Source: a bacterium
GTDB taxonomy: Bacteria > CAYTYR01 > UBA6262
DNA: 42,441 bases
Direction of reading: 5' to 3'
Assembly (NCBI GenBank): GCA_028712895.1
Contig: JAQTPL010000013.1
Coordinates: 1-42,441, forward strand
A model generated the notes under the pieces. The model was given only the letters and a program-made list of their open reading frames with translations, did no database searches and had not been told where the DNA came from. The position numbers and the translations under genes are program-made. Shown one piece after another: positions 36,578 to 39,995 of the stretch. The first letter of the stretch is position 1. Each line of letters starts with the position of its first letter.

Positions 36578-37371
36578 GGTCTCTCCTCCAAGTCCTGGCC
36601 TATCCGTGCTAATACTTTCCTCACCTCTGCGGGATCTTTAAGATAATATTCAGCGGCGGAATTATTAGTCCTGCCTACCACTATAGCATATCCTTGTCCT
36701 TTTAAAAACCTAAATACCCCTTCGTCGGTTCGGTCATCGCCAAAATAAAAAATTGCAGTTTTTTTCCTGTCCCTGGAACCCTCAGGAAGCAACCATTTGA
36801 CTAACTCCCCCTTCCCCCATCTTATCGGAGGGCGGATCTCCAGGACCATCTTGCCTTTTGTTACAACCACTTGCCGGCAATCCTGATAGGATTTTATCAC
36901 TTTATTGAAAATAGTCTTAACGTTCCGCTGCTGCCTGCCGGCAACCAGCCGGTAATGTACAGAAATAGTCACTCTTTTATATTCAATTAAAATCCCCTTG
37001 ATGTCCTTCATTTTTTGGCGCAAGCTGGCATAAAGCTTTTTCAGCAGACCGGAAAAATCATCATCTTTATAAAAGTCTGACCTAACCCCCTGAACATCCA
37101 CTTCCAACCCGTGATTCCCGGCATAAATTATCTTAGGTATTTTGATCATTTTCCTTAAATTCTCCAAAGACCGGCCGCTGATGATAGCCACGATACAACG
37201 CGGCTGGCGCGCTAGCTTTTTTAATATCGTCCTGGTTTTTGGCGGAAGTACGGCCAGGCCCGGCTGGCTGGCAATAGGAGCAAGAGTCCCATCGTAATCT
37301 AAAAAGATATATATTTTCTGGCCTTTGATCCGGGCATATACCCATTCCTGCCAGGCCATAAAATATTTCAT
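36574..37371 (-). CDS. otsB: Trehalose-6-phosphate phosphatase
   Basis: 265 residues from the ATG at 37371, which overlaps the otsA stop as ATGA and follows AAGGAAAAG. A longer upstream start would lie inside otsA. HAD-superfamily motifs are IFLDYDGTLAPIA (motif I with two catalytic Asp), IAIISGRSLENLRKM (motif II), KGKMVLEIRP...KGELVKWLL, and FYFGDDRTDEGVFRFL (motif IV). Removes phosphate from the product of the otsA enzyme. Overlap at both ends points to translational coupling across the operon. Confidence 0.95.
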   Translation of the reverse strand: MKYFMAWQEWVYARIKGQKIYIFLDYDGTLAPIASQPGLAVLPPKTRTILKKLARQPRCIVAIISGRSLENLRKMIKIPKIIYAGNHGLEVDVQGVRSDFYKDDDFSGLLKKLYASLRQKMKDIKGILIEYKRVTISVHYRLVAGRQQRNVKTIFNKVIKSYQDCRQVVVTKGKMVLEIRPPIRWGKGELVKWLLPEGSRDRKKTAIFYFGDDRTDEGVFRFLKGQGYAIVVGRTNNSAAEYYLKDPAEVRKVLARIGQDLEERP

Positions 37372-39611
37372 GTCTTTTCCTTTTTCAATGCTGTCAATTC
37401 GCTGATAATACTGCCCGCCCATTTATAGACATTGTTCTCCTGTACTACTTTACGCATCGATTCCATCCGCCGGGTTTGTTCTTCCCGGGGCATTTCAGTA
37501 GCCTGCAGGATCGCGGCGGCAAATTCTTCAATGGAATAGGGATTGATCTGGATCGCCTGATCCAGTTCTTTAGCCGCCCCGGTAAAACGGCTCAGGATCA
37601 AGCTTCCCTGCAAATCTTCTTTAGCCGCCACATATTCTTTAGCTACCAGATTCATGCCATCATGAAGCGAGCTGACTATGCAAAAATCCGCTAATTTATA
37701 ATAAGGCAGTATTTCTTCCGGGGAAAAATGCCGTTTCAGGTAAATGATCGGCTGCCAACTGGCGTCGGAATGTTTCCAGTTTGTTTTCTCGATCAGCTCA
37801 TCAATTTCCCCCATCAAGTCGTGATACCGTTTGATATGGGTACGGCTGGGGGCAGCCAGTTGGACAAAAACAACTTTCCCTTTATATTGGGGATATTTCT
37901 CGAAAAAACGGTCAATAGACTGAATCCTTTCCAGTAATCCCTTCGTATAATCTATTCTTTCCACTCCTAACCCGACAATTTTACCTGCCAATTCAAGGTC
38001 AGCGCTGATCTTATCTATTTTTTGCCTTAATGATTCAGTATCCGCAAATTTACCAGCTTGGGGGTCAACACTGATAGGAAATGGCTTGATCACTGTTTCC
38101 CGCCCTGCCCTGACTATACTGAATTTTTCTGTGTCCACCCGGGATTCGATCAAACGATTGGCTGTTTCTAGGAAATTATTGCAATGGAACTGCACATGAA
38201 AACCGATGAGGTCGCAGCCCAGCATACCATCCAGTATTTTCTGATAATAAGGACAGATGGAAAATACTTCCGGATTAGGCCAGGGAATATGCCAGAACAA
38301 AGCTATCGTGGCATCAGGCCGGCTTTCTTTGATCATCCTGGGAAGTAAAGTGAAGTGATAATCCTGGATAAAAACAAAAGGATTTTTTGCCGGCAATTCC
38401 TCCAGGATCGAGTCAGCAAATTTTTGATTCACTTTCTGATACATTTCCCAATCTTTTGCTCTAAATACAGGCCGCGTATGTGTCACATGACACAGAGGCC
38501 ACAAACCTTCATTGGAAAATCCATAGTAATATCCTTCTTCTTCAAGCTTGGTAAGCCATACTCTTTTAAGAATGTAACGATTATCATCCGGCGGAACTCC
38601 CAGCTTGTTTTTAGAATTAACAAACTTTTTATCCGCGTTACCGCTGCCATGCGCTACCCAGGTACCGCCACAAGCTCTCAGTACCGGGTCCAATGCAGTC
38701 ACGACACCGCTGGCCGGACGGGTCCACTTAGCTTGACCTGTGATTTCATCAAGCACATGCATATACGGTTCCCGGTTGGAAACGACAAACAAAGCATTTT
38801 CTCCAAGCTTAGCCAGGACCAAGTCCCGCAATTTTGTTTCAGTCCATTGTTCATCGACTTTTAATCTGGCTTGGGCTTCACCGGCAATAGTTTTCCTGGC
38901 TACGCGCAAACTTAAGGCAACCTGCTCAACCTCACTGGCCAGTTTTCCCAATTCCCCTGAATCTTTAATGGGATGCTTATCATCTATTTCACCTTTTTGG
39001 TAGAGATGGAACCATTCTGTTAGTTTTTTTACCGGCACGACAAATATCTGCCTTTGAATCAATAAAACAATAATGATGATCAGCAAAACAATAATACTTA
39101 AAGTAATACTAATATTCCTCCATAACTCAGCTAAACGCGTATAGACATATGAAGTATCATATATAAGTTCAACCACCCCGATCACTTTGCTATTATCATC
39201 AAGCACAGGTATTGCATAGCTGTAAACGGAAAGATCTTTAAATTTTTGCATACCGGCTTCAACTTGCCTGTTCTCCACGACTTGTTGCAAATATGCCTTG
39301 TCTTTTTCCTGCCATTCAGCAATGCGCTCAGTAATCGCCAGGACTTTGCCATTACGATCATATAACACGCAACCTTGCAGGCGTTCCCTTTTCTGGAAGC
39401 TGTCCACCAGGCGCCGGGCGGCTTTTTTATCATTATCCCTGATAATATGCTGGGCTGACACTTCAGTGGTTTCAGCTACTGATTTAGCCTTGCGGTATAG
39501 CTCATCCATTAATTTCTCCTGCTCTATCTTCACCTGAACAATACCGAAAACCGTAAAAACCACCGCAACAATTATCAAGATCGGCAATAAAAATATCAGA
39601 ATTCTCTTCAT
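37368..39611 (-). CDS. otsA: Membrane sensor-HAMP-trehalose-6-phosphate synthase fusion
   Basis: 747 residues from the ATG at 39611 (AGGAG upstream; a TTG one codon before is weaker). The C-terminal ~475 residues are a full GT20 synthase (UDP-glucose + glucose-6-phosphate): VVSNREPYMH, ACGGTWVAHGSG, FIQDYHFTLLP, FWHIPWPNPEVF, VERIDYTKGLLERI, PSRTHIKRY, DGMNLVAKEYVAA. Ahead of it lies a receptor-like module: TM1 (about 5-26), a ~140-residue outer domain (LQGCVLYDRNGKVLAITERI, YAIPVLDDNSKVIGVVELIY) like single-Cache sensors, TM2 (about 170-192), and a HAMP-like linker (FVVPVKKL...GELGKLASEVEQVA). The enzyme would therefore be anchored at the inner membrane and possibly gated by a periplasmic signal. 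First gene of the trehalose operon. Confidence 0.92.
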   Translation of the reverse strand: MKRILIFLLPILIIVAVVFTVFGIVQVKIEQEKLMDELYRKAKSVAETTEVSAQHIIRDNDKKAARRLVDSFQKRERLQGCVLYDRNGKVLAITERIAEWQEKDKAYLQQVVENRQVEAGMQKFKDLSVYSYAIPVLDDNSKVIGVVELIYDTSYVYTRLAELWRNISITLSIIVLLIIIIVLLIQRQIFVVPVKKLTEWFHLYQKGEIDDKHPIKDSGELGKLASEVEQVALSLRVARKTIAGEAQARLKVDEQWTETKLRDLVLAKLGENALFVVSNREPYMHVLDEITGQAKWTRPASGVVTALDPVLRACGGTWVAHGSGNADKKFVNSKNKLGVPPDDNRYILKRVWLTKLEEEGYYYGFSNEGLWPLCHVTHTRPVFRAKDWEMYQKVNQKFADSILEELPAKNPFVFIQDYHFTLLPRMIKESRPDATIALFWHIPWPNPEVFSICPYYQKILDGMLGCDLIGFHVQFHCNNFLETANRLIESRVDTEKFSIVRAGRETVIKPFPISVDPQAGKFADTESLRQKIDKISADLELAGKIVGLGVERIDYTKGLLERIQSIDRFFEKYPQYKGKVVFVQLAAPSRTHIKRYHDLMGEIDELIEKTNWKHSDASWQPIIYLKRHFSPEEILPYYKLADFCIVSSLHDGMNLVAKEYVAAKEDLQGSLILSRFTGAAKELDQAIQINPYSIEEFAAAILQATEMPREEQTRRMESMRKVVQENNVYKWAGSIISELTALKKEKT

Positions 39612-39631
39612 CAAATCTCCTAAAAAGCAAA

Positions 39632-39716: not shown

Positions 39717-39745
39717 TTGCTTTGATCTTAGGGAGATGCTATAAT
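39717..39745 (+). promoter_or_regulatory. Promoter of the leader RNA and small membrane peptide
   Basis: TTGCTT (39717-39722), 17-nt spacer, perfect TATAAT (39740-39745). Expected start near 39752. It points away from otsA. Confidence 0.75.
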
Positions 39746-39751
39746 ATTAAT

Positions 39752-39850
39752 ATAAATTATTTTAAGGGTTCGGTGATTAAACTGTCACCGGAGGGTTTAT
39801 AAGATAGTCGGGCCGCTATCTGGATATATTCCAGAAGCGGTTTTTATTTT
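39752..39850 (+). ncRNA. Structured leader with H-type pseudoknot and attenuator layout
   Basis: After the promoter, TTCGGTGA (39769-39776) pairs with TCACCGGA (39785-39792) over 8 bp. The loop bases TAAAC (39778-39782) can pair with GTTTA at 39795-39799, which gives an H-type pseudoknot. Next, AGATAG (39802-39807) can pair with CTATCT (39816-39821), but CTATCT is also part of the 5' arm of a strong terminator (CCGCT-A-TCTGGA with TCCAGA-AGCGG, 39813-39840) followed by TTTTTATTTT. The two stems exclude each other, the standard layout of a transcription-control riboswitch. I cannot match it to fluoride, preQ1, c-di-GMP, T-box or other common classes. It could instead be a free small RNA ending at this terminator. 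Confidence 0.6.
39813..39850 (+). terminator. Intrinsic terminator 1 of the leader
   Basis: Stem of 5+6 bp with one bulged A and a TATAT loop, then TTTTTATTTT. The 5' arm overlaps the alternative AGATAG/CTATCT stem. Confidence 0.8.
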
Positions 39851-39852
39851 AT

Positions 39853-39880
39853 CGCTAACTGGGACAGTTTGCGGTTTTTT
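39853..39880 (+). terminator. Intrinsic terminator 2 of the leader
   Basis: CGC-T-AACTG pairs with CAGTT-T-GCG around a GGA loop, followed by G and TTTTTT. It is a weaker second terminator between the first one and the small open reading frame. Confidence 0.6.
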
Positions 39881-39899
39881 ATTTTAAAGGGGAGGTATT

Positions 39900-39995
39900 G
39901 TGTCTGAAAAAATATTCGTATTAATATTACTGGTGGTAGTTGTCTGGTTTATAGTATCCGTAGCCATAAACAGCCGCAAAAACCAGGGCAAATAA
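39900..39995 (+). CDS. 31-residue single-pass membrane peptide
   Basis: GTG start with a very strong AAAGGGGAGG ribosome site 5 nt upstream. The peptide has a short polar N-terminus (MSEK), one hydrophobic helix (IFVLILLVVVVWFIVSVAI, residues 5-23) and a basic tail (NSRKNQGK). That matches the build of small regulatory membrane subunits such as KdpF, but I see no sequence identity and no partner operon next to it. It lies behind a promoter, a structured leader and two terminators, and no plus-strand gene follows, so it is the likely regulated product. It is short enough that chance is not excluded; the ribosome site and the helix are the support. Confidence 0.55.
   Translation: MSEKIFVLILLVVVVWFIVSVAINSRKNQGK

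Follow-up and report, generated by a model that had tools for sequence, protein, structure and literature searches.

A probable Na+-responsive nhaA-I riboswitch with an intrinsic terminator upstream of a one-helix membrane microprotein

The nhaA-I RNAs (Rfam RF03057) were shown by White et al. in 2022 to be Li+-I riboswitches (PMC9646797). Rare nhaA-I variants with an intrinsic terminator, as in D. propionicus, sense Na+ instead and have been named Na+-II; they were reported solely from Deltaproteobacteria, upstream of genes with function unknown (PMC9646797). Read-through on Na+ was shown for the D. propionicus RNA, and a C54U exchange broadened its response to Li+, Na+, and NH4+ (PMC9646797). 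The Na+-I riboswitches (DUF1646 motif; PMC9337991) have a related-looking consensus, are terminator ON switches as well, and control overlapping targets (DUF1646, osmoprotection), but they form a separate family with a different lower P1 and P2 loop.

We analysed a 42,441-nt bacterial contig (JAQTPL010000013.1, hereafter the window), from a genome that represents a small phylum of its own, with 5 genomes in the collection. A first-pass annotation had named a promoter, two hairpins, a competing terminator, a second terminator, a Shine-Dalgarno sequence, and a 31-codon ORF, and all of these were recovered in their places. The putative promoter (39717-39745, +), recognized by its match to the consensus, consists of a -35 element TTGCTT (39717-39722), a 17-nt spacer, and an extended -10 element, TGCTATAAT, with TG at 39737-39738 and TATAAT at 39740-39745. 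It had been called strong; the -35 is weak, matching the consensus at just 3 of 6 positions, and the automatic promoter scan missed the promoter for this reason. The aptamer (39766-39821, +) is ordered GGGU, P1, AGG, linker, and P2, the strands of P1 lying at 39770-39777/39784-39791 and those of P2 at 39802-39808/39815-39821 around the loop CGGGCC. A regulated intrinsic terminator, T1, predicted from the fold and from covariation between its arm and P2, follows at about 39813-39845 (+), with a stem of CCGCU + UCUGGA and UCCAGA + AGCGG ahead of UUUUU. T2, a second terminator-like hairpin with UUUUUUAUUUU behind it, occupies 39851-39885 (+; fold -9.4 kcal/mol). The Shine-Dalgarno sequence GGGGAGG (39889-39895, +) precedes the microprotein ORF (39900-39995, +), which has its GTG start at 39900 and would encode the 31-aa peptide MSEKIFVLILLVVVVWFIVSVAINSRKNQGK. 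The fold energy of the leader was -45.7 kcal/mol vs -29.9 ± 3.5 in dinucleotide shuffles (z = -4.5). The divergent neighbour is a trehalose-6-phosphate synthase gene (GT20; 37368-39614, -; PF00982, E 1e-122) with an N-terminal membrane sensor region; the aptamer lies on the opposite strand and would drive the peptide away from that gene. Downstream of the ORF, no gene is found on the same strand before a convergent queA-like gene.

The RNA had been presented as an orphan riboswitch of no known class. It matched RF03057 across the full model (positions 1-55) at 48.9 bits (E 9.6e-9; gathering cut-off 37), and the invariant GGGU, AGG, and GUCGGGCCGC core of nhaA-I were all present in the window (alignment A2). 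By these sequence criteria it is a member of the known nhaA-I family in its terminator-bearing form, and the orphan claim, against which the annotation itself had set a fit to an existing Rfam riboswitch, is removed. The ion it had suggested as ligand type was a good guess, the RNA now being placed in a family of validated Li+/Na+ riboswitches. In sequence, two-hairpin structure, and conserved motifs the RNA resembles Li+-I, and the window held no Rfam match to Na+-I. Nearest in anatomy is Na+-II, which belongs to the same family, has a terminator overlapping P2 in an ON layout, and shares with the window a target whose function is unknown. Na+-II differs in having C at position 54, where the window has U at the base taken to correspond, and in being reported from Deltaproteobacteria only.

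A covariance model and a search of relatives, as the annotation had proposed, bore out the pairing of both hairpins. Our own model of the variant group, R1, was trained on 28 sequences including that of the window, and returned 112 matches, of which 111 were distinct. Standard pairs filled 93.8% of the P1/P2 cells in these 111 sequences, in an alignment fitted to the structure and hence biased in favour of pairing; changes on both sides were seen in 12 of 15 pairs, and pairing fell to 33-49% when the partners were slid. The covariation score of 0.528 was reached by none of 500 shuffles. R1 gave 62.3 bits for the window, itself in the training set, vs 27-38 bits for Li+-I RNAs, and untrained members (e.g. 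L309, L284, and L181) scored as high as the window. Six plasmid-borne Li+-I RNAs were used for comparison, five of them annotated beside nhaA or a Na+/H+ antiporter gene (the record of the sixth, L179, is unannotated there), in place of six Proteobacteria chromosomes that had DNA-pattern matches only and no model matches. A possible anti-aptamer helix between 5' flank and linker, present in the MFE fold of the window, showed no clear conservation (mean 4.73 bp vs 4.59 bp for dealt partners).

P2 and T1 are mutually exclusive because the 5' arm of T1 is the 3' strand of P2. The fold energy of T1 in the window is -19.7 kcal/mol vs -6.0 for P2, and the computed stability of T1 exceeded that of P2 in 133 of 149 relatives; a ligand must therefore tip the balance to P2, which would make the RNA an ON switch. 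Among relatives with a GCGG-U terminator arm, partly pattern-chosen for GCGGTTTT with the covarying base left free, the arm base tracked the 3' base of P2: C occurred with G in 52 cases and U with A in 22, besides 8 C-A combinations and 5 U-G wobbles (Fisher 1e-9, relatedness ignored). A single base thus changes in concert with two different partners, which is what mutually exclusive stems should produce. This covariation and that within P1 and P2 support the predicted ON switch, whose direction is suggested by homology to the experimentally tested members, including the D. propionicus relative of the same layout. The earlier description of a ligand-controlled transcription switch ahead of a real one-helix peptide is upheld at this level.

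The region 39752-39899 would accordingly form the 5' leader of a single-gene mRNA with a terminator-type nhaA-I cation riboswitch. With the ligand absent, T1 would take the 3' strand of P2 and transcription would stop at about 39845. A bound cation, most likely Na+, would stabilise P1-P2 and block T1, and the polymerase would then continue towards the GTG of the one-helix membrane protein. T2, which resembles a diverged copy of T1, should terminate transcription even after T1 has been bypassed, a point against this explanation; it may tighten the OFF state or itself be regulated. Similar second hairpins were detected by a crude screen in 13 of 149 relatives, and they occur in microprotein leaders too (L015, L118, L309, L310, and L326).

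More than 150 relatives of the aptamer were found in Omnitrophota, Elusimicrobiota, Desulfobacterota, and other groups. A pattern scan of the genome collection followed by a structure filter yielded 47 aptamers in 44 loci, the window's genus included; the filter removed about half of the pattern-scan loci as fortuitous hits within coding DNA. The 44 loci belong mostly to Omnitrophota, Elusimicrobia, and Desulfobacterota/Syntrophales, apart from isolated cases under the labels Nitrospirae, Desantisbacteria, Riflebacteria, Margulisiibacteriota, and Actinomycetota. RF03057 was detected in 98 of 384 sampled genomes of Omnitrophota, 52 of 295 of Elusimicrobiota, and 40 of 395 of Desulfobacterota, the phylum of a Smithella. 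The set of 164 aptamers keeps a few chance matches, and the pair counts were therefore taken from covariance-model matches. Tandem aptamers about 110-160 nt apart were observed in L200, L191, L047, L184, L284, L288, and L199, L200 having a run of three. Strong variant-type aptamers were also seen on two contigs of the viral collection (L239, 517-568, -, 52.4 bits; L264, 3957-4014, -, 49.4 bits), and these are either phage-borne or bacterial DNA within that collection.

Genes behind or near the aptamers were assigned by Pfam to GT20 trehalose-phosphate synthase, MscS, Na+/H+ exchanger, DUF1646, CitMHS/ArsB-type transporter, Na+/Ca2+ exchanger, Rnf-Nqr subunit, Band 7/SPFH, and OmpA families. 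Homologues of trehalose-6-phosphate synthase are frequent direct targets, and in a second genome of the window's genus (G002) an aptamer (L005, 1500-1551, -) lies directly in the leader of the synthase gene. The window's genome has a second nhaA-I aptamer (L002, 1501-1559; G000:C58:19168-19226) before an OmpA/Pal-type lipoprotein gene, and G002 has one (L003) before the same gene. The leaders of L002 and L003 share a second hairpin, GCUGGCA...UGCCAGC or GCCGGUA...UACCGGC, whose pairing is kept by compensatory changes. No DUF1646 partner was found in the window's own genome. Long-leader aptamers of the Desulfobacterota type in L072, L160, L171, L189, and L207, some with loop C (GCCGGG), lie upstream of a ~400-aa gene with a periplasmic binding-protein-like product (MKKLFVFA...AQPIRVGAVINLTGPASTWGQ), possibly part of an amino-acid or osmolyte ABC transporter.

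The 31-aa peptide had been described as standing alone and matching no known class. It does stand alone in the window, and no match to KdpF, FixQ, OadG, or any other Pfam/NCBIfam family reached the cut-off, but its relatives recur behind the same riboswitch in several other phyla. Enough downstream DNA was available for 161 aptamers, and behind 25 of these lies an ORF of 28-61 aa that has a Shine-Dalgarno sequence and encodes a hydrophobic helix. The corresponding counts were 0.125 for dinucleotide shuffles, 2.55 for random positions within these loci, and 1 for the reverse strand. Several of these microproteins share the pattern [DE]-W-P-V..(I/L)..G.F..F..Y...(N/K)-G-(R/K) (A1, A4), and such patterned peptides precede DUF1646 (L330), MscS (L281, L349), and trehalose-phosphate synthase (L311, L346). 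In 295 Elusimicrobiota genomes, the six matches that scored best against the peptide-family profile (>70 bits) were each found directly 3' of an RF03057 aptamer. Against a profile of riboswitch-linked and related microproteins from which the window was left out (family A, defined in this analysis), the window's peptide ranked first in its entire genome (E 1.5e-5). The hhalign probability of the peptide against family A was 96%, and none of 2000 shuffled peptides scored as high. A further genome of the genus (G003) has an aptamer (L004) before a homologue with a 1-base deletion in the frame; of the 22 base differences between this copy and the window's, 14 affect the third position of a codon, and synonymous codon changes outnumber non-synonymous ones by 10 to 6. 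G002 is without the peptide, which, like the deletion in G003, speaks against the explanation favoured below. Given the profile match, hhalign, the shuffles, and the third-position differences, the ORF is most probably a genuine and conserved gene for a microprotein, and its translation is predicted.

From gene context we infer that the peptide most likely serves in the membrane as a small subunit with an accessory or regulatory role, and that its conserved microprotein family is part of a regulon for Na+ and osmotic stress (trehalose synthesis, MscS, Na+ antiporters, DUF1646, SPFH). The OAD gamma subunit and the symporter small accessory protein NF045580 are likewise one-helix proteins in a Na+ transport context. 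Other microproteins of the set scored below their cut-offs (13.3 bits vs 35 and 13.4 vs 27), and the window's own peptide had no match to either.

The reading we favour, with a probability of roughly 0.78 for the explanation as a whole, is a Na+-type terminator nhaA-I ON switch for a Na+/osmotic-stress membrane microprotein. The switch most likely senses Na+, a ligand we consider probable and favour over Li+ because the target set is coherently one of Na+ and osmotic stress. That the RNA is a true Li+-I riboswitch, working by the same mechanism with Li+ as physiological ligand and a peptide that aids lithium export or tolerance, appears unlikely; a broad or other ligand takes up what remains. 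The Li+ reading draws on the loop of the window, GUCGGGCC, which is identical to that of nhaA-linked Li+-I RNAs; U39808 in this loop is of the Li+-I type and would correspond to position 54 of the D. propionicus RNA, where exchanging C for U added a Li+ response (PMC9646797). Six genuine relatives, all but one of which come from Desulfobacterota, have a GCCGGGC core with C in the loop, and this C/U position is probably that changed by White et al. Against Li+ speaks the first pair of P1, which is G-C in all six plasmid Li+-I RNAs (GGGUG...CAGGU), whereas it is U-G in the window and C-G, U-G, or U-A (Y-R) in 109 of 111 relatives. White et al. think that most Li+-I members act on the ribosome-binding site without a terminator (PMC9646797), unlike the RNA of the window, and their target is nhaA rather than a microprotein. 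The trehalose, MscS, and Na+ transporter targets of the window's relatives and the gap in R1 scores between the window, a training sequence, and the Li+-I RNAs point the same way.

The class first proposed, an orphan aptamer that has an H-type pseudoknot and an unknown ligand, is now hardly credible. The P1 loop UAAAC can indeed pair with the linker GUUUA in the window. This 5-bp helix was present in 2.4% of the 164 homologous aptamers vs 2.1% with randomly dealt linkers, and the Rfam consensus structure of RF03057 contains no pseudoknot; the pairing thus lacks conservation and is, judged by these comparisons, a chance complementarity of the window sequence alone, whereas every invariant nhaA-I position is kept and the Rfam match exceeds the cut-off. 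It is also improbable, though less remotely so, that a working riboswitch precedes an untranslated or decaying ORF and controls nothing or a non-coding transcript. Such a remnant would suit the lack of a downstream gene, the frameshifted copy in G003, and the limit that T2 would place on expression, but sits poorly with the genome-wide profile match, the shuffles, the excess of third-position and synonymous changes, the strong Shine-Dalgarno sequence, and the intact homologues in several phyla.

With the ON-switch reading, the terminator-bearing variants are extended from the Deltaproteobacteria of the 2022 report to several uncultured phyla and a coherent osmotic-stress regulon. We give even odds to a broader proposal: that in Omnitrophota, Elusimicrobiota, and allied phyla a Na+/osmotic-stress regulon is defined by terminator-type nhaA-I riboswitches, and that its recurrent product is a set of one-helix membrane microproteins, the window's included, which would serve Na+ transporters, MscS, or trehalose synthesis as small subunits or regulators not recognised before. 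No description of the riboswitch-microprotein link was found in the literature searched, and the pairing appears to be undescribed. The recurrence of peptide relatives behind the same riboswitch is of more interest than the orphan claim; these microproteins offer a concrete lead on the bacterial response to internal Na+, and the riboswitch tells under which condition to look for them.

Behind the same riboswitch, three or more additional families of one-helix microproteins were seen. These include (R/K)(L/I)SGWI(F/L)MI... in L118, L302, L061, and L310, MDxxMxFIFI... in L060 and L299, and, in L317, L319, L321, L324, and L328, a type of 49-61 aa whose helix is C-terminal and which precedes DUF1646 or trehalose-phosphate synthase genes. 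A weaker related group of 36-48 aa (MYIDFASDWPAYIFMA.F..F.YVIIKG.SK) occurs without the riboswitch in Elusimicrobiota (L334-L345, L350, and L351). Its members usually lie between a gene that, by inspection, we take to be cysteine-desulfurase-like and a 165-aa gene that is presumably yajQ.
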